Position numbers and translations under genes: made by a program | Source: Trichobilharzia szidati | Taxonomy: Eukaryota; Platyhelminthes; Trematoda; Strigeidida; Schistosomatidae | Assembly (NCBI GenBank): GCA_944472155.2 | Contig: OX235271.1 | Span: forward strand, 81,233,256-81,297,255 | Direction of reading: 5' to 3' | Length of the DNA stretch: 64,000 nucleotides | The notes under the pieces: model-generated | Told to the model about the DNA's origin: nothing | Database searches by the model: none | Seen by the model: the letters and a program-made list of their open reading frames with translations, nothing else | In this document: positions 188 through 63,200 of the stretch, in pieces | Layout of the letters: each line of letters begins with the position of its first letter | Numbering within the stretch: position 1 is the first letter of the stretch

Positions 188-320
188 TCTGCAAACATTA
201 TTGATCCCATATCTTACAATTCCCTCGTGAATCGCGCATTGCCTTCACCAACGACGCAACCTGGATTACAGTTGTGAAATATACCTTTATGTCAATAAAA
301 GGTATTGATTTACAATACTT
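188..320 (+). promoter_or_regulatory. Candidate 3' UTR and polyadenylation signal
   Basis: AATAAA at 294-299 lies downstream of the putative stop codon at 185-187. It supports reading 122-187 as a terminal exon but is weak evidence by itself in AT-rich DNA. Confidence 0.3.
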
Positions 321-3180
321 CACGATGCACAAGATTTCGAATATCACCAACAACGGGAAGATTGACAAAAGGCTTACGGAGAATTCATGCTTTTCAGTCA
401 AATATGCCCAGCCAGTCACATTCACCCACCAGCCTTATCCTGCAATACTAGATATGTTGACACTGCAGGATGTTAACCTTCTGTATTTACCTTACGTCCA
501 CTTTGTCATCACTGAAAAGTCATTGCAATGCTCAAGTGTTCCAACGGTGTTGACACGGACAGCATATTATCAACTATCATCGTGGTGGCTACCTATTAAT
601 TCGAAGCATTTCTGCGTTTGCACATCCTAACTTACTGTCACAGGTGAAAACGACGTGATCCCGACAAAAGTGTAATTATAGTTCGGGAATGAAGCCAGCA
701 GCCACCACGTAATAATATTATCCCTGTGATATTCGGGAGTGAACATCTTCCCCTTCATGTATGAGATCGCTAGTTAGCAAGGATTCCTGAACTCACTGTA
801 ATGTGTTTTACGTTATGCTGGTTCCATTTGTAGTCATCAGCTCTGTTGGGTAGTTACTAACACTCTTCACCTGTTACGAGGATTTAAGAAGACTGGGATG
901 AGTTCATTAACATGAGCTGAGGGTCTTAGAGGTAGTTGAGCCCTCCTCAGGGTGGATTAAATCCTTTCCAAGCAACGAGATCCAAGCAGTCAGCAACCAC
1001 TAAACCTTGAACAGTCACTCCCAGTGTATTAGAAGGCGGTGTCCTACGTCCTGTTACGTCTACAGTGAGTCAATTATGTATGTGAATATTCTTTATTTCG
1101 AGAATTTTTCTCGTAACTGATCTTAAAACAGTTCATGTATTTGATTTAAATTACTTTAGGAAGTCAGTAGAAAATGGGCTGGACGTAATAACCACAGGCA
1201 CTTCATGTGGTTACTGCAGATAAACTTAGATAAATGGGGCGACGCTTGTTACAGTAATCTTCCGTTTTCGGCAAATTATCCTCCATAATATTATTCCATC
1301 CAGCCTCCGAGGCATCACAACCCGACAATTAAGTTCCATAGGGTAGTTTGTGAACCTAACCTCGGTCTAAGTGGACACTTCAAAGATTATGTAAGCATTC
1401 TCAAAACTTCTGAAAACATGGTGTTAAATTAATAGCGAATAACACACGTGCAAGACTCCCTTGTATGCTCTATTCGAAGCTGACTGTTCTACTGAAAGAA
1501 CTGCTCAAATTATCACTTGAGAAAACGTATATAGGATTAAATTTTATCTTCGAACTGCAGCACCGTGTGAGGTAAAAAGACTTCTCAAACTCATGGAAGA
1601 GAATTGATCATTCGGTAGATAGAACAGACCTTACAATTCACAAATAAGATATTGTTCATACACAGTTACTTGTCTCACCTTTCTGAATTCCGGGACTACT
1701 TTTTAGTAAACACATACCCCTGTGTGTAGAGACCTTATGCTGTCGTTTTATTCCTCACAATAATCATGCAGGTGATAAGCTGATAGCTGAACTATTTGAA
1801 GACATTTTACGCCAGCATTAATTGAACGTGAGTACTAGTCCATGTCTGTAAACTTAAGCCGCTTTAACAACAGCAGCTGAGGATAAACTGTGCAACCATT
1901 AAGTTCTATCAATATCAAGTGCCCAAAAGTCAATGTGGTTTGTCCAGTGGGTGAGCATGCCCGTTTACTCTCACCTCAAGCGAGAGGACTCGTTGATCAC
2001 ACGGAGAAGCTACCATATTATGAATGAAAGAGACAACTGTCTTTTGCAGTAATTACTTCCATTTTCATTCTCTTTTTGTTCATAATCATTTAGCTCAAGA
2101 ATCGACACATAAATATTACGAAATGATTTCGGCAGCGTTAATTTTGTCCGTTGACTGTTGCACAAAAATGGTGCTGGGGTATGCCATAATTGTAAAAGTA
2201 ACGAAAAAACATTGTAATTATGAAGAAATGCTGTTGAATGTGTCATTCATTACCAAAACGTTGAAAAATGCCGTGTGACAGTGCGGTATGTGCATTATAT
2301 AGAGGAGTATTATGATTACTATTATTAGAGCGTATTGTTAATTTATACCATGGAAACTATGTAGATATTTATTTAAACGCCAACATCGTCGGACCTACAA
2401 AATTCTTATTAAAATTCTGTGTATTAGTCACTTTTACTTTATACTCCACACATACTGTTATAAATATTTGAGCAGTGTGATCATTTCCTAAAATACTGCT
2501 TACACTTTTCTGCTATACATGAGGCAGCGATTGTAGGATGGTCTAGATGAAGAGGTTCACAGCAGCTCCATTATCTGATAGAGATTCAATGCGAAGTATG
2601 CATAGATGAGCCTATGAAGTCTATTTCTACCCACATTAAACGAAAAATTTCTTCTCCTGCCTGATTTCTCGTCTTTCTGAATTACCTAATGAGTAACTAC
2701 TTCTCAGGGACCATAGCTTACTGTGTTGTAGAGGCCCTACGAAACGCAGCCTCAACATAAAAAATTACACAAGGCAAACAAATGGAATTATTGACCACAT
2801 TGCATTTTCTTTTCCCACATGAAATATCATTTACACGCCTGATAATCGAATGGTTTTCATCAATGCAATGTCGAGATCTTTTCATCTTCCCCTACGTACA
2901 CGCTTTCTTCGAACTGAATTGAACCGTCAGATACCCCTTCAGACAACATTTTGATGATGAGTCACCTACTTTAGTTACCACACTGTGAGCGCAACTGATA
3001 GAAATCAGTCGGCATCAACACCAATGGTCTAGACGCTTGACAGTGGTAACACCCTAGTAACCAATCCATATGCATTTTACTGGTATTTCTTATAAATGCA
3101 GTTGTAAGAGTTTATGAATAAATTTGAAGCGTGTGACCCATATATAGACGTAAGTAATTGTCTGAAATGGTAGTGACTTA
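321..3180. other. Intergenic DNA, no supported gene
   Basis: Both strands contain only short open frames with no recognisable domain or matching splice signals. I see no clear repeat terminus here either. Confidence 0.5.
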
Positions 3181-3199
3181 TTTCTCCCATGTCATAACT

Positions 3200-5000
3200 G
3201 GAAGACAACTGTGTATCATGGCATACATAGAAACCAAAATGGCAGCACTACTATTTCACTGGAGGGAGACCTAGTGGCTACTCCCCAAATAAACCCGGCA
3301 ATAGTAATAGGGAAGCTACAGAGACACACACCTGGAAAGTCCCTAGGTTTTGACGACATCAAGCCATCTGTTCTGAAACAGTGCGTCGAAGCTCTCTGTA
3401 GGCCCTTATGCGAATTGTTTTAAAGCTAGACGGATTCAGAGAAACTGGCAAATGATTGGAAAAGAGCCATCCGTTCTCCGATCTTCAAGGGTGGGGATAG
3501 ACAAAATGCCACTAGTTATAGACTAGTAGCTCTCCTCCCAGTGGTATTAAAAGTACTGGAAAGTATTATTGATGATCACAACAGGGAATACCTCAATAGG
3601 TCTAATAAACTCCATGAAGCCCAACACGGTTTCAGGAAAGGCAGATCATGTGTAACAAACCTACTGTCAGCTTGGGACGATTGAACATCATGCTGGGATA
3701 TAAATGTTCCAGTCCATGTTGTCTTCCTAGACTTGGAGAAGGCGTTTGAAACAGTTCACCATTACCTTCTCTAACACAAAATAAGTCAGTATAAGCATAG
3801 GTAAGCCGCTTCTGTCATGGTTGAAGGACTACCTAGCTGAAGGGCAATTTTGCACTAAGGTCAATCGAGTCCGATCATCTTGGCTCAGCTCGTCATCAGT
3901 AGTGTCGCAGGGTTCTACCCTAGTACCACTGATGTCCTTGATTTTCATCAATGGCGTACCATGCCATCTAAGCTTAACGACTCTTCGATAGGCTGATGAT
4001 GTAAAAATATGGAGGGCAATAAAGTGTCCAGAGGACCCAGATAGTCTGCAGGCAGTTCTAAAGCTTCTGGAAGACTGGACGGTGGCCAATGGCATGACTT
4101 TCAACCTGAAAAAGTGCAAAGAAGTGGAATTGTGCACCTGTAGGCTGCAGAATGCAGGTTACACCCTGTGCAATGATAGCTTGTCCTGCACAACTTCGGA
4201 GCGTGACTTAGGTCTAGTTTTAGCGAAAAATATGGACAGCAGCGTAAATTACACGGGGGACCCGGCGAGGGCATATGCTGTCATACACTTAACACACAGA
4301 CAGGTGCATTCAGTGCTGGACTCGTTCTAAGGTTGTACAAAACATGCGTCAGACCACACTTTGATTTACATAATATCATTGCACCACTGGAAAGAGACAA
4401 AAGACGGACGATATAAGGAGAGGTTGATCTCCGAAGTAAACCATATGATGACAGGCTAAAGTAATTAGGCCTATTCACACTTAGCTACCATCGGCTTAGG
4501 GGGGGTTTGATTACTGCCTACAAGATAAAAAATGACCAGAGTCCCCTGAACAAAGGTGTTCTGCCACTGAGTAGGTATAGCCTTCCTCGCGGAAATCACT
4601 AAAGGATATCTCACCAGAGAACAAGGACCCGTGTGCTCTCCCACTTCTTTTCGCTAAGGGGTTTGCCGTCCCTGGAACTCCTTACCAGCAGATGTAGCTA
4701 TGGCACCGTCTGCTGAAACCTCCAAGCGAAGGCTGGACAATCATGCAGCGACACAAGGACTGCGTCCAAATGACCTATCCCCTAAAAATCATATACGCCA
4801 TTCGAGGGTAGACAACTAAAATCGTCGTTTTACTTCTTCACATTCTCTCCCGTCTTACTCTAACCACATTTATTATTATTACCGATATTATATATATATA
4901 TCAACTTCAAATTAAATCGGTTGTCTGCTTTTACGTTTTCTTTATTTCTTTTTCTGTCTGTTAGTCTGAATAACTTCCTTAATTATATCTATTATTATTA
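3200..5000 (+). mobile_element. Decayed CR1/Jockey-type LINE, reverse transcriptase remnant
   Basis: Plus-strand translation in shifting frames gives the usual order of a non-LTR reverse transcriptase. In order: a PGKSLGFDDIKPSVLK segment near 3340, a WKRAIRSPIFKGGDRQNATSY block near 3460, a QHGFRKGRSCVTNLL block near 3625, motif A FLDLEKAFETVHH near 3725, and the catalytic ADDVK block near 3990. A C-terminal LYKTCVRPHFD segment lies near 4340. In-frame stops and frameshifts are frequent, so the copy is dead. The end is AT-rich with ATT runs, typical of the 3' end of such elements. The 5' endonuclease part is missing, which suggests 5' truncation. The RT superfamily is clear; the CR1 clade is an inference from the motif spacing. 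Confidence 0.85.
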
Positions 5001-7670
5001 TTATCTCTTTTCTTTTGACGACGGCACCGGAAGACTAACTGGTGAAAGGATAAACTCCATTCACAGTAGTAACAGTCTTAGCACACCTCATACTACAAAC
5101 CACATATAACTAATCCCAGCACTACTCCATTTGGAGTCAACCAAAGTTACGACAGTCGAGTGGCGGGACGAGCTAGGCAGAATTTTACCGAAGATCGGGA
5201 ACCTTTATCTCACAACCAAGAGGCGGGCACAAATAAATCAAATTGGTTAACACTAACTCATAGGATTGATATTGGATGATGGAATATTGCGCAATCTCGA
5301 AGCGCTAAGCTTAAAGAGTACGTTACAAAGGTGAGTTTTGTGAGATGTTCACGTTGTTACGTTTTATGTAGTAGATTTGCAATGTAGGTCTAAAAAATGT
5401 CAGAAAACATTAGGGAAAGTGAGTGATTCAAATCTTATTCGCAGAATCACACAGCTGACTTATTAAGTGTATATTAGCTGATCTACTGTCAGAATATATC
5501 TAGCTATATAAGTGAATGTCTTATAAACGTCTTTGTTGCCAAATTCGTATACCATAGAAATGTGTATATTTGTTAACTCTCTTTCACGTTCAAACAAGCA
5601 CACTGTCTACAAATAAACAGCTTCATGCATGGGCTCCCGAAGGTATGTTTGCTGACAAATCTTCATGTAGATACCAAAGGCTTGTTCGGCACTTGCCAGT
5701 CTATATTTAACACAGACCTAATACCTCGCTGCCCGTTAGAGCACATGTGCAGTTTTCTGAAATTCAAGACATCCAGCGTAGGACAGCAGTGAGATAATGG
5801 CGTTTAAATAGGGAGATATATTATGATCAGTCCTTTGTTTCATGTATTTAAGTTATCCCCTTTAGGTAGTTTAACATTGTCGGAAATAATGGAGTTAGGC
5901 ACATTGTAATTTTTAAAGAAAGGAAGTTAATCTGCGAAGAGATGCCACATCGACTGAGATGTGTAGAACACGTTACTCATTCCGAGCTATCAGCTTCCTT
6001 GACAAGCAATACTAACTGAAGTAGGATAAAGTTTGTATGAGAATTAGAACATACAACTAAGCTGCACTGTTCTGAACCATCTAGTGAGGTTAAGTCTGGT
6101 TGTAGGACTCCGTGTGTTGGGAATCAATGATAGGAAATTCACTCCTTGCTACTTCTCAGCTGCTATCAGTCCTCATTATCATTATTATTTATGCAGTCTG
6201 CACATTTTTGTTCAATGCGACTTAATCTACTGCATTTTCGCTCGAAGTTCTACGTCAGTAATTCAGTACTGCATGTATAGTTCAAGGCTATCGTTCTAAA
6301 TAAACTACTTCAGGAAAGTTGCATTAATTTCTAGACTCTATTAGCAATAGTCTGCTGAGTTAGGTGCGACTTTCCAAGAGAGTGAATTCTTAATCTCACT
6401 CAATCTCTAATTCGTTAGCTTAAAAATGTTCGTGTTAATCATCCCTGGAGTATGTAATCTAGACCAGGGCTTTCTTAGTAAACTTATTGCGTCGAATTAG
6501 ATGACAAGTTATCTTGAATAAGTTTTCTTCAATTAAGACACTTTGGCTTACTTAGTCTTTGGGAATTGTTATCTCATTAATCTATTCGATATCCATCCTT
6601 CTAGGTTCCCCTAAGCAATGCATGGTTTTAAAGTTGAAACTGGCATATGATGATGACTAGGAATGTAATATTTTGCAGTTTTGAAAATGCACTCATTAGT
6701 AGTAAATTAAACTGTCATAACCTGCAAAGTTGTCGATATCAGTCAATATTATTCATAGTATGACATTGACTGGCTTCTAGTAAAAAAAAGCATAACATGC
6801 CTGGATATCCCGTTTCATGATATCAATCGTACACTGCTGTAATTTCTCTGTATTCATCGTGAAGAAAATTCTTTCATTCAACAGTTTGCCTTTCGAATTT
6901 GGTCAGCACCGAATTACTATATCTTGAATAATACTGACTAGTCTCAACAACTCCACATCATCTACAAACTTTTGGTGAGTTGACTGTACTACCAACCTAT
7001 GTCCACAGAGTGCAATCTTCTCAAAAAACAATCGATTATCCCACAGACGTGACCTAGTTATCCTCTAACTGCTTATACAAGGCTGTCATTTCGCTGTCGT
7101 GGAGTTTGTTGATTTGAATCGACCTACCCCAATGCAACTTTATTCCTCTTATCACGTTTCAAATCAACTCAAACGACAAGGCAATAACAACATTAACCTA
7201 TTCTGTGCCTCAACTTGCATCTTAGTGATTATATTGTCATTCACTAGGTCTCATCTATCATAAAATAAAAATTCTCGGCAAATTCAGCTGTAGGGTACAA
7301 TACTGCCTGAGAACCAAGGCGAATAAACAACACAACTCGTGTAACTCACTCGTGTGAGTAACGCAAACTTCGTGATAGATTTCCGATAACCTGAGTGGAC
7401 GAATACTACGATGGACTACCAAGGTGACTACACCCAGTGGCTAACTTATTGAAAATGCATGCTGTCGGGCTTATCAGCGCACTTTTATATATATACATTG
7501 GTGGTTCAAGTGATTGATTTCGGTGGAAATACAGCAGTCATGCCGAAATTTATAACTTGTGTTAAGTTCTGAGTTAAATTACCAGTTAGTTTGGTCGGGC
7601 ATTGGCAAAACCGAACGTTCACAAATAACTTTTACTCTAACTAATTCCTGTCAACTCACTTTAGAAATCT
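5001..7670. other. Intergenic DNA, no supported gene
   Basis: AT-rich sequence with scattered short open frames and no recognisable domain. The last part, just before 7675, would hold the promoter or outron of the small gene at 7700. Confidence 0.5.
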
Positions 7671-40740: not shown

Positions 40741-42000
40741 GTGACCGAATGATTGAATTAACCAAATTCACTTATTTAGGAAGCTGCATCAGCCACTGTC
40801 AGCGGATTGATCGCTGACGAAATCTCAGCATGGATATAGAAGGCTCGTTTGGTATATGCCAACTTACCCCATCTCTAGCGTGGACTTGATATCCGGCTAT
40901 CGACCAAAGGACGTGTGTACTGCTCAGCAGTTCACTCTATCCTCCTTTATGTCTGTGAGCGAGACATGGAAATGCTAGCTGTCTTTTATCATAGGTGTCT
41001 GTATTCTATCTCTCATGTTGGGTGGTATGATAAGATGAGCAATACTGAGGTTAGGCATTGGTCGAGTGTTAGGTAGGGAGGGGAAATCAATCGACAAGGT
41101 TGTGAGGTTATACCGACTGAGGTGGTAAGAACATGTGTTACGCATGCATATCTAGCCATCACCTTCCCCGACGGGCTATGTTAGCTGACTGACATAGGAT
41201 CAGATTGGAAAAGAGCGAGCTAGTGGTGTTCAAACGGATACGTTGCATTAGTCAATGAAATCCACAACAGCTAGGTAGCTACCTGGGGTTCTAGTGGCAA
41301 GTCGTGACCAGTAGGGTGCAAGAGTTCGAAGGTGAGGACATATACTCGCCGAAGACATTTGCTAGTGGTCGCGCTGTGTCGTGAATTGGCAGAAGTTGTA
41401 ATTCATGGGCCATTGAGTCGGGTCCCAGTGGCTTAATGGCCAATAAGCTAGCTTGCCTTGAACCAGAAGGTGCTGGGCTCGAACTCCTGTGGTGGGTGTG
41501 TACTGAGGAAGAGTCCCAAGCACTAGGATGAAACAGCTGTCCAATACTCCCTCCAGGTTTTCCAATGGTTCTCTAACTGATGTCAGCTCATGATGAAATC
41601 CTGTAACCAATCAATAAAATCCCTACAAACCAATACTTGAAAATCCACAACAGTTAGTTTAAGCCATGTAGGGAGTTGTAGATTTCTTGGCTGGATGAGG
41701 TCCTCGGGATGGTAAGAAACAATGGCTGAAGAAAATTGGTGATATGGTTCAAAACCCTTCTCGGTGATGGAGTAGATGCATTCATTCTTCATAAGTTTTC
41801 ATATGTAATAAAACTCTGCCGTTCTTCCATATTACTATTCTTTTTGCCTCATATTTCTGTTTATTATCTCTCCCTCTCTCTTTTGAATCGCTCTTTACTC
41901 TCTCCGCCTGCTTTGTGTGCTACAAAGAGGGAGTGTAGCAACTCGAAATGCTGCACCTCTGTGCAAAGTTCTACGTTGAAACCAGTCAGTCAGTCAGTCA
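40741..42000 (+). mobile_element. RTE-type LINE (SR2-like) 3' part, split by a SINE
   Basis: Close relative of 60060-61070. It encodes decayed forms of the RT C-terminal region (SGLIADE..., LVYAN, CDERDMEMLAVFYHRCLYS-like blocks) with stops. It ends in CTGCACCTCTGTGCAAAGTT and a tail of CAGT repeats (41984-41999), the short tandem tail typical of RTE elements. A SINE at 41271-41640 interrupts it, so the LINE is older than that SINE. Confidence 0.8.
41271..41640 (+). mobile_element. Full-length hammerhead SINE (Smalpha-like) with target duplication
   Basis: A 370-bp insertion flanked by the 13-bp duplication AAATCCACAACAG (41258-41270 and 41641-41653). It contains a tRNA-related head with an A-box-like GTGGCTTAATGGCC and a B-box-like GGCTCGAACTCC, a hammerhead-like region (AGAGTCCC..CTAGGATGAAACAGCTGTCC) and the 3' part GGTTCTCTAACTGATGTCAG. 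The ribozyme core is damaged: three extra bases in CTGA-gga-AGA and a weakened stem II. Confidence 0.85.
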
Positions 42001-43330
42001 AATTCTGATAAGTTGATCAGTGAAAAATGATACCATATAGTGTGGACGTGTAATAATTACTCACGTTATGAATAAATTGATTACTTCAACTCTTATTTAG
42101 TGCATTTTTAAAGTTAATCGAACTGAAAATAAAGTAGACTAAATAATTACTTCATTTCATTGTTTATCCTTATCATTCTTTGACACAAAGCACTGAAGGG
42201 AAAACAAAATACTGTAGATACAAATCATGTATCTAAAGTTACTCAGTCAATCAAGAATAAGGAGCAATAACACAAGGTAAACAACGATTTCTTACCATTA
42301 AATATAAATGTGATGCACTGCAAGCTGTATGCTGATGGGTGTATCCATTTTACACATTATTTGTTTTTGTTTACACTGCACTTATTTTGGTGACTGTACA
42401 GTTTTCAAACTTGTTTTAATGCCAGTAAGCAGTAAAAACCAAAACTCTTTTGGATCGTTGATTCATTAATACCTTCAATATCTCCGTACACTCTCATAAA
42501 TCTACTGGTCATTCCCTGTCATTTTTCCAGCTTGATTATTGCTCATATTCAATCAGGTTATACTCACCAGAATTTTCAGCTTTTAATTGCCTGCAAATTG
42601 CTGACTAGGTTTACAGCATGACTTAATTGTTCTAGGTATCCTTAGTACTGTTTAACCATTTCTTGTTAGATATTGTAGTATCAGGTGGAAGCTGGAAGTT
42701 AGAATAAAGCACTTTATATTGGTACTAACTTAGAAGCAATTAGAACAGTAGCAGTTATTTAAAAATGCCAAAAATATTTGGTATAACAATGGACGTAGAG
42801 TATAATATGCTACAAATTCGCTGACATATTTACTAACCCCTAATATCTCTATTTGGTTTACTTGGACAACGGAAAATTAAATGGTTGCATTTATCATTTA
42901 TGAATCCACTTAGGGCCTCGTTCTGTTCCTTATCAAACAGTCAGAGAACAGTTAGTCACCGCTAGTTTATAATAAAAAAATTAGATTCCTGGAACTAAAG
43001 TTTTGTGCACTTGTATCAAGTTTTATTTCAATAACTTCGGTTGGTCTATAAATGCTAAATGTTCATTCCACTGTAATTATAACTCAGGAGGGCTGTGATA
43101 AATAGAGTGTATCTAATAATTACAAAATATAGTCAACCTTCTAAGAACAATGTGAAACAATATTGCTTCTATTGTGACGGTTCATAAGTTCTAACGTAAT
43201 TTTAGAGCTTATAGCGTTTTAGTCTGGCAACATAAGAGATGGAATAAACTACTGTTCTCAAACTTACTTGCTGAGCAAAGCTACTCACTGAATAAATTAT
43301 TCTAGGAATTCAATTATTTCTGACGTCTGC
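42001..43330. other. Intergenic AT-rich DNA
   Basis: Nothing recognisable; no open frame with features. Confidence 0.45.
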
Positions 43331-43334
43331 TGTC

Positions 43335-44200
43335 TTCAAATTCCATGGGAAAATATGAAGACAAAGAGAAGGTGTAGCAATGGGATCACTGATACCTCCA
43401 ATTTTTGCAGATGTCTTCACGAATAGTTGAGAAAATGTGTCTCGTGAGACATCTAATAGTACCTCACAGGTATGGTGAAGATATGTGGTTGACATTTTCG
43501 CAATGTTAAAAGCGAGACATACCTGTGGTTTCTTCACGCATATAAACTCAGCAGTAGAAGGAATTGAATCTACACTGCAGTTATAAAATGAACAAGGAGA
43601 ATTAGCTATATTCGACTGTACGAGATAAATTACTCACCGGCGTCAATAAAATGCCAACAGTCAAACAGATATTTAGACATTAGGTCATCTCATCTATTAC
43701 TTGTAAACACAGACTTAATTAAGTGTCTAACAAACCGGGTGAAAACTCTAAGTAGTATATCAGGAAACCTAAATAATGAAATGAAAGTGATGGAAAAAGC
43801 ACTAGTTCTGCATAATTATCCCATAACACTCATCAGGAAGTCCATGGAAACTCACAAAAATAAGAAAAATATGGTAGTGAAACTACTCGTCATAACACAA
43901 ATAGGAAGCAATTTAAGGCGTCTGGAGTTTTATTAAATAAGGAAGGTACATCGTAAACCCTGCTTGGGATTCTTAATAAAGCAAGAATCAAGGTGGCATT
44001 CAAACTCACAAAATCCTTCAAAGACAAACTGTGTAGACTAAAGGATTACACTGTCTCTACTAAACAAGGTCACTTAATTCGTGAATAACCTTTTTATGAC
44101 TGTGAAGTTAAATAGATAAGTCAAACCAGTAGTTTAGGGTGAAACAGGTAATCAGGACATAGGAATTTGGCCAAGTATAAAATGACTGACCACAACTTCC
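43335..44200 (+). mobile_element. Decayed PLE copy (same family as 46157-47305)
   Basis: Follows the intact PLE frame almost base for base: GAAGGTGTAGCAATGGGATC at 43370, the equivalent of the YVDD region near 43467, AACAAGGAGAATTAGCTATA, ATATTTAGACATT and the region before the GIY-YIG domain near 43975. Many stops and small indels. The end near 44110-44195 matches the endonuclease part in very poor condition. Confidence 0.85.
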
Positions 44201-45724: not shown

Positions 45725-45906
45725 CTCAATTAAATGTGAAGAAAACAAAGTCTTCATACCTTTATCATATAAGGAAGGGAAATCCGAAACCATAAGTAGA
45801 ATTGTTAATGAGGGTGGAATTAAGGTGGCATTTAAACTTAAGTACTCACTCTGAGATGGACCATCTCGGACAAATGATTCAGCTAACCCAACTAGACAGC
45901 ATAATT
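45725..45906 (+). mobile_element. Older PLE, left part (host of the young PLE insertion)
   Basis: Matches 46775-46925 of the young PLE with many changes (CATATAAGGAAGGGAAATCC, AATTAAGGTGGCATTTAAAC). It is cut at the 14-bp target duplication; a matching right part occurs at 48260-48490. Confidence 0.75.
45893..45906. repeat. Target-site duplication of the young PLE, left copy
   Basis: TAGACAGCATAATT, identical to 47764-47777. It fixes the insertion as 45907-47763. Confidence 0.85.
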
Positions 45907-45942
45907 GATATAAGAATAAAACTTGGGCACTGTGGTAGAGTG

Positions 45943-46177
45943 TAATTCCATAATGGGTAAATTTTTATTTTGATAGAGTCTCACAGTGTTATACAGTAAT
46001 ATTTACTGATGACGTTTCGAGCACAAACTATTGCTCATAATCATATCAAGTTACTCACACAACTTCTTTCCTTCATTTATATACATGTGTGGAATCGACT
46101 AGATATTGGATTAAAATTCAATATGAGATAATGTACATTCAGAAATAATAGTACGAGTGTTATTAATCCATTGCAAT
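45943..46177. repeat. PLE terminal inverted repeat, left (235 bp)
   Basis: The reverse complement of 47531-47765 with no difference that I could find by eye. It starts TAATTCCATAATGGGTAAAT and ends CCATTGCAAT. Identity over 235 bp implies a recent insertion or recent correction. Confidence 0.92.
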
Positions 46178-47305
46178 CCATTGCAAGGCAAAATATATAG
46201 ACAAACTGAAGGTGTAGCAATGGGATCACCAATATCCCCTATCGTGGCAGATATATTTATGGATAGCTGGGAAAATATGGCACTTAATACATTTAATCCT
46301 ACTCCAAAAATATGGTGGAGATATGTGGATGACACTTTCACAGTGTTAAAAACAGAACATATCTCTAGCTTCTTGACACACATAAACTCACTAGTGGAGG
46401 GAATAAAATTCACATTTGAAACCGAAAATGAGCAAGGAGAATTAGCTATGTTAGATTGTAAAATAAAACGAATAGAAGAAGGCAAACTACAAACTAGTGT
46501 TTATAGAAAACCAACGCATTCTAATAGATATTTAGACTTTAATTCATCTCATCCTGTAACTATTAAGGCAGGCTTAGTTAAATGTTTAACAAACCGAGCA
46601 ATGGCACTAAGTAGCACAAAAAAAGACCTTAATGATGAAATAAAACATATAGAAGAGGCGTTGGTTTTAAATAACTATCCTCTAAAATTCATTAGGAAGA
46701 TTGAAAAAAGCCAAAAGAAAAATAAAAAGAATTGTGAAACTAGTAGTAATAAAATAAATAAGAGAGAATATAAGTCATCTACAGTTATACCATATAAAGA
46801 AGGGACATCTGAGACCCTACGTAGGATTCTAAATAAAGCAGGAATTAGGGTGGCATTTAAACCTACAAACTCACTCAGGGACAAGCTCTGTAGGTTAAAG
46901 GACCCAGTGGACCCAATTAGACAAAATAATATAATTTACAAAATACCCTGCAATGACTGTGAGGTCAACTACATAGGTCAAACTAGTAGGTCAGGGGTAG
47001 TCAGATTGGCAGAACATAAGAATTTAGCTAAGATAAGAATGGTTGACCCAGAGAAGATAAGTAATTTAGAAAAAAGCTCGGCAATCGCACTGCATGCATT
47101 AACACACAACCACACAATAGGGTGGGAGAGGGTTAAAATTCTAAAAAGTAATCTAGGTAGGTGGAAAGAGAGGTTGATTACTGAATCTTTGTTCATCGAA
47201 TCTACACCCAACACATGCAACAGAAGTGACTCAATGCAAATACCAGAAATATGGAAGATATTATTGCCGCCAGTCAAATCAGAAGAAGATGATAAATTGT
47301 CTTAA
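46157..47305 (+). CDS. Penelope-like element: truncated RT plus GIY-YIG endonuclease
   Basis: PLE proteins copy RNA into DNA and cut the target with a GIY-YIG nuclease. This frame runs 382 codons without a stop. In order: GKIYRQTEGVAMGSPISPI (RT motif B, residues 11-29), the catalytic WRYVDD (54-59), FNSSHP and KAGLVKCLTNRA (about 128-148, typical of PLEs), a lysine-rich linker (181-207), then YKIPCNDC (261-268), YIGQT (272-276) and VRLAEH (282-287) of the GIY-YIG fold. The first in-frame ATG is 46220; the frame is open back into the terminal repeat. The RT fingers and motif A are missing, so this copy cannot supply a full RT. It is 5' truncated but otherwise undamaged, unlike the relatives at 43335 and 45725. 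Schistosome PLEs of this type have been called Cercyon; that name is an inference here. Confidence 0.93.
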   Translation: MLLIHCNPLQGKIYRQTEGVAMGSPISPIVADIFMDSWENMALNTFNPTPKIWWRYVDDTFTVLKTEHISSFLTHINSLVEGIKFTFETENEQGELAMLDCKIKRIEEGKLQTSVYRKPTHSNRYLDFNSSHPVTIKAGLVKCLTNRAMALSSTKKDLNDEIKHIEEALVLNNYPLKFIRKIEKSQKKNKKNCETSSNKINKREYKSSTVIPYKEGTSETLRRILNKAGIRVAFKPTNSLRDKLCRLKDPVDPIRQNNIIYKIPCNDCEVNYIGQTSRSGVVRLAEHKNLAKIRMVDPEKISNLEKSSAIALHALTHNHTIGWERVKILKSNLGRWKERLITESLFIESTPNTCNRSDSMQIPEIWKILLPPVKSEEDDKLS

Positions 47306-47560
47306 AATTCTATTTCCATTCAAGCACATCATAACATTCTAACAATCAACTTATTATGACTGTAAAAAACACTCGTCGTATTTCCCATCTAATGGCAATG
47401 GATTAATAACACTCGTATTATTGCCACCAGTCAAATCAGAAGAGAATAATAAATAATCTATTTCCATTCAAACACATTCTAACAGTCAACTTATTATGAC
47501 TATAAAAACACTCGTCGTATTTCCCATCTAATTGCAATGGATTAATAACACTCGTACTAT
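47262..47560 (+). repeat. Tandem duplication of about 150 bp at the PLE 3' end
   Basis: The block TATTGCCGCCAGTCAAATCA through TTCCCATCTAATGGCAATGG is repeated once, starting again near 47418 (TATTGCCACCAGTCAAATCA). The first copy overlaps the last codons of the frame; the second runs into the right terminal repeat. The two differ at several positions. Confidence 0.8.
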
Positions 47561-47765
47561 TATTTCTGAATGTACATTATCTCATATTGAATTTTAATCC
47601 AATATCTAGTCGATTCCACACATGTATATAAATGAAGGAAAGAAGTTGTGTGAGTAACTTGATATGATTATGAGCAATAGTTTGTGCTCGAAACGTCATC
47701 AGTAAATATTACTGTATAACACTGTGAGACTCTATCAAAATAAAAATTTACCCATTATGGAATTA
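47531..47765. repeat. PLE terminal inverted repeat, right (235 bp)
   Basis: Inverted copy of 45943-46177. On the plus strand it holds TGTGCTCGAAACGTCATCAG (about 47681-47700), the 3' part of a hammerhead-like motif known from PLE terminal repeats. The 5' CUGANGA box is not intact. Confidence 0.92.
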
Positions 47766-47777
47766 GACAGCATAATT
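47764..47777. repeat. Target-site duplication of the young PLE, right copy
   Basis: TAGACAGCATAATT, identical to 45893-45906. Its first two bases overlap the end of the terminal repeat. Confidence 0.85.
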
Positions 47778-47784
47778 CACAGGC

Positions 47785-48215
47785 TTGGTCACCAAGTGAC
47801 TTCAGTTAGAGAATCACTGGAAAGCCAGTGAGTACTGGACAGTCATTTCGTCCTCGTTTGGCACACCTAAGTAGTACTCATCCACGGCCCCACCAATTAC
47901 TGAATCTAGAACTTTTAAAAACTACGAGACCAGCTCGTTTATCACTTAACGTGTGAATTGTGACTTCTGTCATTTCGCGATTTTCAGCCACACTGCCCTC
48001 GTAGACAATTGGATTCAGTGCTCACTTTGTAACTGAGAGGTCGTAAGTTCGAACCCTAGTGGATGCATACTGTAAAGAGTCCCAAACTAGGACAAAACGG
48101 TTGTCCAGTAATCCCTGGTTTTTCAGTGGTTCTCTAACTGATGTCAGCTCATGATCAAAGCTGTAACCAATCAAAACTCTGCAAACCGATACTTGATAAC
48201 ACCATGCGACAAACA
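47785..48215. mobile_element. Old head-to-head pair of hammerhead SINEs
   Basis: The left arm (about 47785-47980) is in minus orientation: reverse complement reads AGTACT..GAGGACGAAATGACTGTCC..GATTCTCTAACTGAAGTCAC. The right arm (about 47985-48215) is plus: B-box-like AAGTTCGAACCCT, AGAGTCCCAAACTAGGAC, then GGTTCTCTAACTGATGTCAG. Both ribozyme cores have lost key bases. The pair interrupts the older PLE. Confidence 0.75.
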
Positions 48216-48840: not shown

Positions 48841-49047
48841 CATTGTGCAACGTCAAATAAACTCCTCTAACGCAGGAAACAGAAATTCATCTACTAGGTG
48901 GGATAAGAACACGCATTACAGATTACGAATGGAGTGTGTTTGTACAGGAATGATTCTTAGTACATGTGTCGATGATGCCAATTTATGAAACTTACAGGAT
49001 TTCATCATGAGCTGACGTTAGTTAGAGAACCATTGGAAAACCTGAGA

Positions 49048-49093
49048 GTACTGGACAGCTGTTTCGTCCTAGTTTGGGACTCTTCAGCAGTAC
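49048..49093 (-). ncRNA. Hammerhead ribozyme, apparently intact
   Basis: On the minus strand: stem I GTACTG paired with CAGTAC (6 bp), core CTGAAGA, stem II GTCC/GGAC with loop CAAACTA, core GAA, stem III ACAG/CTGT, and cleavage site C after GT. All invariant core positions are present. Stem III has no loop, as in known Smalpha ribozymes, so cleavage may need a dimer or may be slow. Confidence 0.82.
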
Positions 49094-49158
49094 GCACCCA
49101 ATGGGACTCGAACCCAGGACCTTCTGGTTACAAGGCGAGCTCGAATCCCGGTGGGCGC

Positions 49159-49204
49159 GTACTACTGAAGAGTCCAAAACTAGGACGAAACAGCTGTCCA
49201 GTAC
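49159..49204 (+). ncRNA. Hammerhead ribozyme, core intact, one stem I mismatch
   Basis: Same layout as the minus copy: GTACTA, CTGAAGA, GTCC-AAAACTA-GGAC, GAA, ACAGCTGT, C, CAGTAC. The base pair next to the cleavage site is A/C instead of G/C, so five of six stem I pairs remain. Confidence 0.75.
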
Positions 49205-49439
49205 TCCCAGGTTTTCCAATGGTTCTCTAACTAACGTCAGCTCATGATGAAATCCTGTAACCAATCAACCAAATCCCTACAAACCAACACTTGAATATTA
49301 TGAAACTTAGTTGGTGTCCAGTTACGACCTAAGATTATCCCCTTATTTCCATAAAGGTGATTTCACTTTATTTTCTTCTGAACGAAATTATTGTCTTAGA
49401 CGTTTCATACCTTATAGTTAAATTTTAAAGTGAGATTTC

Positions 49440-52486: not shown

Positions 52487-52722
52487 AAAGAGACTTTTCA
52501 ATACTGAACACGAACTGACCTCAGTTAGAGAAGTACTGAGAACCGGGGAGTATTGAACTGCTGTTTCGTCCTTGTTTGGGACTCTTCACATAATCCAATC
52601 AGGGAATGAATCAAGGACCAAGCACTCCCTAGTTTTCAGTGCTTCTCTAACTGAAGTCAATTCGTGGTCGAAATTGAAACCAACCGAATCCCCACAAACT
52701 AACATTTGAAAAGAGGCTTTTA
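52487..52722. mobile_element. Second head-to-head SINE dimer, older
   Basis: The left arm (from about 52505) is minus: GACGAAACAGCAGTTCAATA on the reverse strand with core GTGAAGA (one change). The right arm (to 52709) is plus: AGTTTTCAGTGCTTCTCTAA, then ACCGAATCCCCACAAACTAA. Similar flanks AAAGAGACTTTTCA (52487-52500) and AAAGAGGCTTTTA (52710-52722) look like an aged target duplication around the whole pair. As in the younger dimer, the left arm lacks the 3' tail. Confidence 0.72.
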
Positions 52723-57287: not shown

Positions 57288-60200
57288 CTAAAATGTAACA
57301 AAAATAAAACCATAAGAACGTAAATGGACGAAACAAAACGCATAATACAATTAAAACAAAGAATTGTGTTATTACTGCATCAGAGAAGAACTGATGCTCT
57401 GATTGATGACAGAACTCGATATTGAACACTTCAGTAAGGAGTTAGACTAATTCGTCAGCACTTAACTCGTATTTTCAAGTTCCGTGATTGTCTATGTACA
57501 ATATATACCCATTTAAAAGTCACCAGAATAGAGTTAAACAATTTTGAGTTGCGTATTTAGGCTTTAGTGTGTGATTAACACAAGCCCCAAAGAGAATTCA
57601 AGTTGAAATTCATCTATATTTCCAACGTATTCAAACTGTAAACATTGCAAATGTATGAAAACAGCTCATTGAAATGCCTTTTCTGTTGAGGTACATTTGA
57701 AGAAACAAAATACCTGATGTCGAGTGACAGATTTTTAAGGGAAAATACAGCAAGTATAAAATTACAGATTGGTTTGTCATTTAAAGCTTGATATTTTAGA
57801 TTTTATTATCTGATTTAAAATGTCAAATATTGGTTTGCAGGGATCTGCTTGATTCCAAGTCTGATGCATGGAGAGATCCATTGGAAACGAGAGAGTATTG
57901 GTAAGATGTTTAGTCCTCGTTTGGGTCTGTTTATTAGTATACATATATGACCCCACCGTCAATCGAAACTGGGACTTTCATGTTACAAGGCGAGCTCGTA
58001 TACAACAGGGACAGAATCCAATGGCCCACCAAATCCAACTTCTGACAATTCGCCACATGTAGCTTAACGGGCAGCCAGCATTAATAGTGAGTATTTTTCC
58101 TGACAGTGGTCACCACTTCTTACCATAGACTTAAGGCAACTTAAGCCTGAAAATCATTTACGGTTATTGATCGTTACAATGTGAACTGATTTATCCCCTT
58201 GAGATGACATTTTGCTCAACTACTATTTGCATTGACACGCATTTGACAATGAGTGACACCTGTTTTATAAGGGCTCATAATACTATCTTGTCGCCCAAAC
58301 CAATCTAGGGGGGGGGGGAGGCTGAATTCGAACCGATGATTTATTGGAGGTGCCTTGATCTCCTGGACTTTCTTGGCTATTGAAAACTAAATAAAGAATA
58401 ACCACTTTATCAAAATGTAAATGCAATGTAGTGTTTCTGATAGGACAATATTCATTTTCTGTCTTATTTAGTTCGTTTTAAACACAAATTATTTTACTAT
58501 TCAACCTTGTCATTAATTAAAAATTGATTTCTTATCACTCCCTGCTAAGTGATAACTTTAGTTGTGGAATTGTTGTAAGGGAAGCTATGATGCCACATTG
58601 TAAAAGTAGAAGAGAATATTAGGAAGTAACGCGTTCGATAAGGGACAATTGGCTCGGTCAGAGAATTGACAATCTTGAGGCCAACTTCGGAAATATTCAT
58701 GGGTGTATACCATTGTCAATTTCCAATTTGAAAGGAGATACTCTTTTAACGCTCTGTCGTCTTCTGTACTTCTGTAGTTGGTGTTAGTTCGAGATTTCGC
58801 TGTCTTACCCAGACATAGTAGCTGTGCTAAGAAACAGTGAGTGCTATTAGGTACCAGTTAGTTTCTGGTTACAGGAGATCGGAAGTCATATAAGGTCGAT
58901 GTAAACATCACATCCAAGAAAATATTTTAAGCTATCAGCTGTCAGTCAGAGTGAGAGATAATGTTGGATGCAGTCTCATACATTACGAAAGCTAACTAGT
59001 TGCCACTTTCAGGTTATTGTGATTTTTATGTCATACTTATTCAATTATGAAGTATAATGGTAACTCATTTCTGAGTACTTCGTGAAAAAAGATTTGTACC
59101 TTACGTCTAAACCGTTAAGATTTCCAGAAAGACAAATGGTATGACAAGTCAGGTTGGTTATGCTAGAGATGACTTATAATGAAAAAAAACAAATACAGCA
59201 CAAAGAATATTTCACTGCATAGTAGAAAAATGCAACAAATAATGTTTAGTATATTCCAGAATAATGAATATTACTCACTTGTAGAATTTTTCCATGATAT
59301 GGTACTGAAAAAGAAAGTTGTTGTTGGTAAAGTGGATCTAGTGTACGTCTTGGCGGATACATAGTTCTTAATTTCTCTACTGACTGTTTACCTTCCAGTA
59401 AATGAAGTTTAACATATGGAGCTGGAAGCGGTTTAGCTGTATTCTTCTGTTGTAAACCTCTGGCACGAATAACTTCAACTTCTAAATGACCTTTACGATC
59501 ATAAAAGCTTAGTTGTATTTCTCCAAGACAAGGCATTCCAAGTACTTGTCGACCGACTAGTTGACCAGGACCAAGACCTTCTACAAATTCTCCAACATGT
59601 GATTCATTACGTCCCATATAAATACTGTTCAAAGAAATATATAATTTTAATGATAAACATTAGTAAACTTATTAGTATATAAGTTACATAAAACGTTGAG
59701 AAAAAGGTATAAAACGTATATCCAATAGAATACATCGCACTGATCAAGGCATTCTACTAGAAATCATGCAGACAGGTGGAAGCCCATGGAGAGCTGTCAT
59801 CTGAAGTGGTGACGACCAGTGGTGTCCATCAGGGATATACCAATGGAATTAATCCTAGCTGATTTCAGTGATTCAGGGATTGACTTGCTACCAGGGGATG
59901 ACCTCGTTGACTTAAAATATGCAGATGATATAGTCGTTCTAGGTGAAGACGCTAATAAAATGCAGAGTCTTCTGAGCACCTTAAACTGAGCAGTAATCTT
60001 CGAATGTTTGGCATGTTATTCGCTCCCGTCAAATGTACGATGATGCTACAGAACTGGACTACAACGACTACTCATAGCTTAAAGACAGGAAGTGAAGTGG
60101 TAGAGATTGTTGACCACTTCACTTAATTGGGGAGATACATCAGCCAGTGTCAGCGGGCTGATCGCTGACGAAACCTCAGCATCGATAGAGAAAGCTCGTT

Positions 60201-63200
60201 TAGCATATGCCAACTCACGCCATCACTGGTGCAGACGTGATATCCAAATGGGTGTCGACCACAGGGCTTGTATACTACTCAGCATTTCTCTCCGTCCTCT
60301 TTTATGGCTGTGAGCGAAACATGGCCACTGAAAATGGAAGACATGAAAAGGCTAGCTGTCTTTGATCATAGGTGTCTGTGTTCTATCTCCGGTTTTCAGT
60401 GGTACAATAGGGTGCACAATATTGATGTTAGGAATTGGTCGAGTGTAAGGTAGGTAGGGGAAATCAATCGACGAGGTTGTAGAGTTAAATCGATTGAGAT
60501 GGTTAGGAAATGTGTTAAGTATGCCTAGCCATCGCCTTCCTCGACAGGCTATGTTAGTTGCTGACATAGGATCAGATTGGAAAAGAGCCAGTGGTAGTCA
60601 AACCAAATCATAGCTTCATCAGTCAATGAAATCCACAGCAGTTAGTTTAAGTCAGCCACGTAGGGAGGTGTAGACTGCTAGTCTGGTTGGGATCCTCGGG
60701 ATGGTATAAATCAATGTCTGGAGACATTTTGTGGTATGGGTCAAAATCGTTCTCGGTGGTGGTGCAGATGCGTTTTGTTTGTCTGTCTGTCTGGTTTCAA
60801 CACAGAACTTTGCATCGGTGTGCGGCAGTTCGAGTCGCCACACTTCACTCAGCACTCACTTTTTATGATTTATAATATCCAATAAAAATTTATTGTTCCT
60901 CCATGTTACTGTTCTTTTTGCCTCATATTTCTGTTTATTATCTCTCTCTCTCTTTTGAATCTCTCTTTACTCTCTTCTCTTGGTTTGTGTGCTACATTGA
61001 GGGCGAATGTCAACTCGAACTGCTGCACATCTGTGCAAAGTTCTACGTTGAAACCAGTCAGTCACACTCAAGTAAAACACAATTCAGTCTTAGTACTACA
61101 TTTTCCTTCCTTCACAAACAGTAATTACTATTCGTCCAACTTCACATTTGTTCCATATGACAGTATCTACTGTTAGGCTTTCTAAAGTATAATCGGTTCA
61201 CATTTGCTAGTTAGTGAGAACTCAGTAGTCCAAAGTGATTTTCCATATACCAAGCTATGTGAACCACAGTTATTACGTGAGGACTGGTGATACTACACAG
61301 TTGCCTAGGCTGAAGTAGATGGAATGGAATTTGAATCCAGGACCTACTGGCTTCGGTGAATAGATCCTTTAGATCAGGATAGTATGCTTAATGTTTTACT
61401 TGAGTGACTTCCGACTACTCAAATTAATCAGTAGTATGTACAAATTAGTAAAATATTGTGTAGTTAAGGCATGAAAAAGTTTTTCATTACACCTGTTTTC
61501 TCTTAAAGTCTCCCTGCTCTTAAAAGAGTAAGAATCATTAATGTAAGTATAGAACTTGGGCACTGTGGTAGAATGTAATTGCTGTGAAAACTATAAAACA
61601 AGCATCTAAAGAAAATGATTGACAACTTTGGATTCTACAAGAGATCCGTGGACGACACCTTCATTATCTCCAACAATCAGGAGAATTTGGATAACATCTT
61701 GAACTTTTTCAATAGCTGCCATCCAGCAATCCAGTTCACACTAGAGAATGAAACCGACACAGAATATCTTTTCTGGACGTCCAATTAACAAAACGTGAAC
61801 AGGATGGAACAATAAAAATAGACATCTACAAAAAGTCGACGTAGGATGGACAACTTACTAACTTTCACAGTTGGGTGCCCCTATATACACTGGTAGCATT
61901 TTCAACCCTGATACTATAGAAGAGGATTTAAACACTCTGAAGGCAATCTTCCCAGAAAACGGCTACCCAGAACTTCTTATCACAAAATCTATGAAACGTA
62001 AACCGCTAAAACCCTCCACACTCTCTGCTCCTAAAATCTTCTTTACCTGAACCTAAAATTCAATAATGATTCATCAGCAGAAATACTGAGAAACCACCTG
62101 TCCCGCTCACTGAAAAAAACCTTCACGGATGAACTCCGACTAACCTTCTCTACGAATTAATGGTTTGCATGAACGTGAAGGATAAGCTACCACTGTTGGC
62201 CTCATCAGTGTGTATTTACCAATTCACCTGCTCGTGTGGAGCTAGGTATATCGGCCGTACCCAGCGTCAACTATCTAAACGTATCATCGAACACTTATCC
62301 TCATGATTTCAAAAAGGAGAAGAGAGGTCCTCTCGAAGCTCTATTCTGGAACACATGTTCGAATAGAAGCACCAAGCAAACCCGCAAAGTAACTTCAAAG
62401 TCATCTACAGAATACGTGGGAATCTTGTTAAAAGAGCACGAATCAGACTTCTTCAAACCGCAGAAACAATGGCAGTTCACATATTAAAGCCCGAACTCTG
62501 CATACAAAAGTTTGTTCAGTCATTAAATATACAATGAACCTGACCTATCTTAATACCAAATACGTAGTTTTTGTTTCATCTGTTTCTTGCTTGTCTGTTT
62601 CTTAATTGTATAATATTTTCCCCACCCCTTATTACCACTGTTGTTAACCTGACTTTTGTTCACTTTTAATTGTAGCTGAGCTCTACTCAACTCCGTCAAT
62701 TAGATGACGTCACTCAAGTTGCTTATTTAATCTTACTTTGGTTTCTAACCAATTAACGAAGTTTGTTATCTAAAACTTACAATTCTAACAATTTTATTTT
62801 AGTTTCTACCCGATTAACGTTCTCTACGTTACGTAATTTTTTAACTAAAATTTACAATTTTAATGACAAATCTTTGAAATATGCATTTTGTTGCTAAGAC
62901 AATTAACCATATGTATGCGATCATACAGCTTGAGAATGATATCACCGAAAAGAGTAACTCTTCACAGTGCGCCATGATGGCTGACCACATTACAAGCTTG
63001 ACTGATATAATTCAGTCTGCACTGAAGATAGGACTAGACATATTACACTAGTTACCGACTAGTGTATAATCTAAAATATCCTGTACAGTCCTACAGGAGG
63101 TAAATGTCAAGTCTGAATAGCTCAGTGATAACGTCTCTGACTGCAGGTGACGCGGGTTCGAATCTCAGAGGGGACATGAGTTCCTTCAAGACTGAAGATA

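Follow-up and report, generated by a model that had tools for sequence, protein, structure and literature searches.

Head-to-head hammerhead SINEs in Trichobilharzia szidati share the insertion anatomy of Penelope-like elements

In the genome of Trichobilharzia szidati, two SINEs that each carry a hammerhead ribozyme lie head-to-head at positions 48983-49309 of the window, the 64,000-nt stretch of contig OX235271.1 that was analysed here (the assembly containing it comprises 1.11 Gb in 907 contigs). The locus raises the question of how two inverted copies of a short element come to sit in one place, and why only one of them has a tail. As argued below, the pair was probably produced in one insertion by Penelope-type two-strand target priming. 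It is composed of the following features:

48983-48994, plus strand: left target-site duplication copy, TTATGAAACTTA, 12 bp; the TTA at its 3' end agrees with the RNA sequence of site A (...cctgTAAcc)
48995-49143, minus strand: left arm (A-arm), an antisense SINE cDNA that ends at internal site A, without tail
49048-49093, minus strand: type I hammerhead ribozyme of the left arm (RF00163, 54.1 bits)
49141-49143, no strand: arm junction, a 3-nt microhomology (TCG) explained by both arms, by eye against the family consensus
49141-49297, plus strand: right arm (B-arm), a sense SINE copy that ends at distal site B
49159-49204, plus strand: type I hammerhead ribozyme of the right arm (RF00163, 49.8 bits)
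49261-49297, plus strand: tail between sites A and B, about 37 nt, in the right arm only
49298-49309, plus strand: right copy of the target-site duplication, TTATGAAACTTA

Both hammerheads exceed the Rfam gathering score, and the inverted arms align over 120 nt at 94% identity (7 differences in 117 nt). The last letters of the left arm read ...cctgta. A or C make up 78% of the family tail, and a GGTTCGA-type B box is visible by eye in the consensus, in the putative tRNA-like 5' part. Duplications were judged against a null in which flanks were swapped between loci, calls being made above the 95% level. The 12-nt duplication of the window pair scores 12, as compared to a 95% point of 7 and a maximum of 10 in this null. 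Since it surrounds both arms, the dimer entered the chromosome in a single event, as the sequence-only reading of the locus had proposed. Just at the start of the left arm, the RNA matches the TTA at the 3' end of the left duplication copy, which is what priming by the target end at this point would produce. Both arms also carry a linked two-base variant (AACG for GATG) present in none of the 24 other copies matched by the search expression; they thus derive from one source or from close relatives. Two more head-to-head SINE pairs are found in the window:

47782-48196: second pair, older; left arm to site A, right arm to site B; no duplication found
52505-52709: third pair (A/B), diverged; 12-nt near-duplication AAAGAG(A/G)CTTTT

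Separately, the window holds two copies of a dispersed repeat of about 1 kb (40767-41992 and 60118-61064, with pieces 79-88% identical) that match mir-3492 weakly (E 0.13 and 0.26).

The head-to-head order proved to be characteristic of these elements. In a 264-kb sample made of 20 random 10-kb pieces and the window (itself not random), 75 SINE fragments of at least 25 bits were identified and neighbours within 100 bp were counted. There were 16 head-to-head (-,+) pairs, three of them in the window, and one pair each in the tail-to-tail (+,-), (+,+) and (-,-) arrangements. Random placement gave an expectation of 0.86 (-,+) pairs and at most 5 in 2000 trials. A younger hammerhead SINE was sampled by fetching the 30 loci with the best ribozyme scores among 74 scored, out of 368,299 first-look candidates. 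This choice favours pairs and long arms, which is to be held against the Penelope interpretation. The 30 loci represent 26 distinct insertions, because L017 and L021 overlap L016 and L020 while L012 and L030 repeat L011 and L029 within duplicated segments. The L029/L030 insertion occurs twice, 1.1 Mb apart in opposite orientation on contig 4, and that of L011/L012 twice, about 0.25 Mb apart on contig 1, both through segmental duplication. Twenty-five of the 26 insertions are head-to-head; the remaining one, L023, is single. A 20-mer of the younger SINE occurs at 5722 genome sites. Among 100 of these listed for contig 1 (0.4-24.1 Mb), seven (-,+), no (+,-) and one (-,-) pairs lie within 400 bp, with 0.17 expected for all orientations together. 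Six further loci taken at roughly even steps from the 20-mer list yielded five head-to-head insertions and one single copy, L055.

Single copies thus exist, L023 and L055 among the young ones, and 29 older copies of at least 40 bits look single in the 264-kb sample, a second point against the Penelope interpretation. Six of these 29 show a duplication exceeding the null, which is flush at L038 8317 and L050 973; two of the 29 (L032 4982 and L044 1547) do show a left arm in another search. The single young copy at L055:163-489 spans almost exactly one full unit, from site A to site A (211..207 across the joint), and might be what a circular RNA copied once round would give.

Enclosing duplications above the null were found around 31 of the 38 pairs tested (23/25 young, 8/13 older; one of the eight, in L045, is a simple repeat). 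Outer ends follow a two-site rule. All 25 young pairs combine an arm ending at A with an arm ending at B, as read from alignments that are least clean for L001, L009, L015, L018 and L022. In the young unit, site A falls near positions 202-218 (CCACCAATTAAATAC) and site B near 309-327 (TTCAATTAAAT); the corresponding sites of the older family are about 30-37 nt apart. Two of the 16 pairs in the 264-kb sample are cut by piece ends, and 13 of the 14 classifiable ones are A/B, as are both fully visible pairs among the extra loci from the 20-mer list. One diverged pair reads A/A (L046 8405/8660), and this too speaks against the Penelope interpretation. The missing tail of the left arm, pointed out for the window pair in the sequence-only reading, is therefore a general rule (25/25 young pairs and 13/14 classifiable pairs of the sample). 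That reading had suggested counting pairs that have one enclosing duplication and whose left arms stop at a constant point; in the parts of this one genome covered here, the count came out as it had hoped.

Two loci deserve separate description. At L025:2347-2816, a second young head-to-head insertion, outside the 25, lies 0.5 kb from the first one in L025, with the left arm running to B and the right arm to A. The diverged pair at L046:8405-8882 has intact hammerhead cores (CTGATGAGTGCCAACTAGCACGAAAC), is close to neither SINE and perhaps represents a third hammerhead family.

The two SINE families resemble each other only around the 5' half of the ribozyme and in the tRNA-like part; no similarity was detected on comparing their 3' ends. 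In the young unit, the stretch flanked by A and B folds better than 200 of 200 shuffled versions (z -3.7). Arms of both families cross unit joints, revealing tandem units of 327 nt (young) and about 402 nt (old), so that a tandem or circular RNA can, judging from the sequence, have been the template. No ORF for reverse transcriptase (RT) and GIY-YIG is present in these 327-402-nt units; the SINE is therefore not itself a PLE and only inserts like one.

The anatomy described above recurs 1.2 kb from the SINE pair, in a truncated PLE with a 13-bp duplication, inverted arms and a one-sided tail:

45894-45906, plus strand: left target-site duplication of the PLE, AGACAGCATAATT, 13 bp
45907-46177, minus strand: inverted pseudo-LTR with a tail of about 36 nt, which reads as ORF start (MELHSTTVPKFYSY)
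46178-47302, plus strand: 5'-truncated open frame with the end of an RT domain (RVT_1 E 1.8e-5, 25 bits, below the cut-off of 29.6)
within 46178-47302, plus strand: GIY-YIG-like stretch, by eye only
47531-47764, plus strand: direct pseudo-LTR, ending at site A, without tail
47765-47777, plus strand: right target-site duplication of the PLE, AGACAGCATAATT

This copy (45894-47777) looks young: its duplication is perfect, its pseudo-LTRs are at most one base apart and its 5'-truncated RT and endonuclease frame is unbroken. A second, older PLE RT fragment lies on the same strand at 43275-43837. A search with a Penelope RT motif query (threshold for fetched loci, E below 1e-4) returned the PLEs of the window (46181-46345 and 43278-43505) and nine fetched loci. 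In all three PLE pairs found, those of the window, of L050 (arms 3088-3321 and 4044-4295) and of L044 (arms 3690-4143 and 4615-4849), the tail is on exactly one arm. The asymmetry that the sequence-only reading noticed in the SINEs is thus a two-site rule common to Penelope-like elements, one of which adjoins the pair; this it had missed. A fourth locus, L047, contains head-to-head PLE arms that match over 865 nt at 99.65%, the left arm being cut by the piece end. Its RT (RVT_1 E 5.5e-11) has a Trichobilharzia regenti protein as best relative (91%), and its GIY-YIG match (20.1 bits, E 8e-4) stays under the 22.6 cut-off.

Several observations count against linking the SINEs to these PLEs. A clear duplication is present in one of the three PLE pairs and absent from those of L050 and L044. 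Comparison of the SINE ends with one PLE family revealed no shared end sequence, the best match being a 23-nt inverted one (E 0.03). The Rfam model detected no hammerhead in the PLE pseudo-LTRs of the window, L044 and L050, and a regular expression likewise found none in the pseudo-LTRs examined. Apart from these comparisons, a genome search for GIY-YIG (PF01541), in which 150 of 2611 candidates were scored, gave two equal matches, and the one examined is by eye an SLX1-like gene; the PLEs of this genome fall below the reach of that search. As a separate observation, SINE pairs directly adjoin Penelope pseudo-LTR ends twice (L024:1104-1262 and window 47765-47782), possibly reflecting a preference of the SINE for PLE targets, or chance.

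Besides the Penelope interpretation, four other origins can be considered. The strongest, though improbable, is twin priming of the LINE type with two SINE RNAs: on one strand the LINE enzyme would begin from the 3' terminus of the RNA, and priming by the other strand would take place within a second SINE RNA. The duplications and microhomologies of the SINE pairs do resemble LINE insertions, and a LINE-type RT ORF is present in the genome. Junctions were tried in 22 cases, of which two were without anchor and 11 too mismatched for resolution; the nine resolved junctions (of 20) all have 1-6 nt of microhomology, with a mean of 2.4 versus 0.64 expected. Setting the 11 unresolved ones to zero lowers the mean to 1.1 (P 0.025). 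According to passages of PMC12016303, 18-22% of L1 insertions show twin priming, with a median overlap of 12 bp. Like that 5' inversion, the SINE pair consists of opposite cDNAs inside one duplication with a microhomology joint, and the likeness drawn in the sequence-only reading, two inverted cDNAs in one event, is to this extent supported. The difference that it named also stands: the SINE arms represent one and the same segment of RNA, in contrast to those of ordinary LINE twin priming. Moreover, the outer ends lie at two fixed sites and the arrangement is frequent in a SINE, whereas in human Alu, a LINE-driven SINE, the same passages put twin priming at 0.02% of germline insertions (one Alu in 5936 insertions). 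Independent RNAs should also give A/A and B/B pairs, and there is none among the 25 young pairs. Finally, a LINE control showed no such pairing: among 27 fragments matching the RT of L051, which we take to belong to an RTE-like LINE, the one (-,+) pair within 400 bp consists of unlike copies (91% and 53% similarity to the query).

The proposal of two SINE RNAs draws further support from differences between arms. For 22 of the 26 loci in this comparison, L030 included, at least 15 overlapping sites could be compared (arm overlaps reach 324 nt, and four of the 26 loci have no overlap). Paired arms diverge by 0.075 per site, about as much as swapped arms (0.081; 87 of 500 permutations as low). 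Differences between arms fall at family polymorphisms, defined by presence in at least two other loci, more often than expected: 19 of 102 versus 7.8 when all loci were used (P 0.0005), and 13 of 56 versus 4.5 in 13 hand-chosen younger loci (P 0.001). In this test L022, L027 and L030 were dropped, and CpG sites and gaps excluded. For example, the two arms of L002 are distinguished by a linked 74A-75A pair that the two arms of L014 have in common. On the other side, shared minor variants are roughly threefold enriched in paired relative to swapped arms (0.0127 versus 0.0039 per site; none of 500 permutations as high). Of 48 two-copy variants, four occur in both arms of one locus, as compared to 1.0 expected, and the L007 arms have 76 identical nt together with a private shared variant. 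Thus, the sequence-only reading's requirement for two RNAs is supported in so far as some arm differences are family polymorphisms and divergence is not below that of swapped arms; the excess of shared minor variants goes against it. On sequence grounds, the template units copied appear related, sometimes perhaps the same and sometimes different; either a pair of RNA molecules or a single tandem RNA with two copied units would account for this.

A quite unlikely origin is self-priming, in which the cDNA folds back and copies itself, or antisense RNA primes itself, to give an inverted dimer. It accounts for the head-to-head order and, in passages of PMC3846280, is the model offered for Penelope of Adineta, where self-priming on antisense RNA is proposed for inverted pseudo-LTRs. 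Some junctions are palindromic (GAGCTC in the window pair, ATCCAGCTGGAT in L003); the GAGCTC was dismissed as a sign of self-priming on being recognized as part of the family consensus. However, arms copying one another should have the same outer end, and the outer ends are regularly different, one at A and one at B. In addition, one arm extends further 5' than the other, and some of the arm differences are segregating variants.

Still less credit can be given to the ribozyme, through self-cleaved RNA pieces, as the source of the arm ends. Such a role had been suggested for the window pair on first reading and fails there: the whole ribozyme is present in both arms, and therefore did not make their ends, and the inner ends (49141-49143) are situated upstream of the ribozyme. 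Among 23 listed arm starts of the young family beyond the ribozyme 5' end, four come to 3 nt or less from the cleavage site, and that of L003 coincides with it. The cluster would have a P of 0.008 had the site been named in advance, but some 7-nt window holds four starts in 49% of random draws, and the other 19 starts lie elsewhere; we treat it as a lead only. Furthermore, as described in excerpts of PMC11167929, ribozyme mutants of PAc left insertion unchanged. Lastly, two independent insertions side by side, conceivable given 75 fragments in 264 kb, can hardly be entertained with one duplication around 31 of 38 pairs and tail-to-tail neighbours numbering one in the 264-kb sample and none among the 100 listed 20-mer sites.

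Under Penelope-type two-strand priming, a PLE-type enzyme would cut the two target strands about 12 bp apart, and the 3' ends exposed by the cuts would each prime reverse transcription of hammerhead-SINE RNA, with the start at internal site A for one strand and at distal site B for its counterpart. The far ends of the two antisense cDNAs would then join by short microhomology, in line with the resolved junctions. Because both cDNAs are antisense and joined at their far ends, the arms come to lie head-to-head; because one starts from A and the other from B, the A-B stretch, the tail, is left on one arm only. The data show the single event, the excess of head-to-head pairs, the A/B rule and a matching anatomy in PLE copies of this genome; from these we infer a PLE protein as the enzyme, extension of both strands in vivo and end-to-end joining of the two cDNAs. 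The templates could be a single tandem RNA, two separate RNAs, or the same RNA used for both cDNAs. We see about an even chance for a broader proposal, namely that a Penelope-type complex, acting in trans on a tRNA-derived SINE with a ribozyme, normally yields head-to-head dimers, through an asymmetric enzyme pair with one subunit always at A and the other always at B, one per target strand.

Precedents exist for most of these steps. PAc, a purified PLE protein of a lizard, is described in PMC11167929 as cutting both target strands and extending each of them, and as starting reverse transcription at two internal RNA sites, the interval between which is the genomic tail. In vitro, PAc did not prime by homology to the cut DNA, whereas many outer SINE ends here show short matches to the target (by eye), a further discrepancy with the Penelope interpretation. 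Adineta Penelope copies, in passages of PMC3846280, have an inverted pseudo-LTR, a 31-bp tail on one inverted pseudo-LTR and 8-10-bp duplications. Their pseudo-LTR holds the first 12 codons of the ORF, or 22 with the tail, and the tail of the window PLE likewise reads as ORF start. As described in these two papers, PLEs (Adineta Pen2a, PMC3846280; PAc, PMC11167929) resemble the SINE in their head-to-head arms, short duplications, one-sided tail, two start sites of reverse transcription and tandem units. Unlike them, the SINE has no ORF, a putative tRNA-like 5' part, a full hammerhead and no end sequence in common with the one PLE family compared.

For the SINE itself, we assume that SMalpha is the name for an element of this kind, a likening by description that draws on passages of PMC8490949. 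The hammerhead SINEs of schistosomes, SMalpha and Sjalpha (Ferbeyre 1998 and Laha 2000, as cited in passages of PMC8490949), are, like this one, short and SINE-like, with a type I hammerhead and a fluke-type genome as host, the comparison being by description. Metazoan non-LTR retrozymes are also similar, with small tandem units of about 300-400 bp and type I hammerheads (in parts of PMC7229834 and PMC7761336), and PLEs have been proposed as likely candidates for mobilising retrozymes or type I hammerhead repeats (in a passage of PMC7761336). Searches of openly licensed PMC papers turned up no description of hammerhead SINEs in head-to-head order, nor any of a rule of two end sites and a tail in SINEs.

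Altogether, a strict two-site, two-strand signature is common to two SINEs with unrelated 3' ends and to PLEs in one genome, which makes the question of the mobiliser testable from sequence alone. Inverted SINE pairs may, in addition, be sources of hairpin RNA. If a trans-acting Penelope-type complex is indeed responsible, the machinery behind animal type I hammerhead repeats would be identified, and inverted Penelope pseudo-LTRs with a one-sided tail, an old puzzle, would be given a simple cause.
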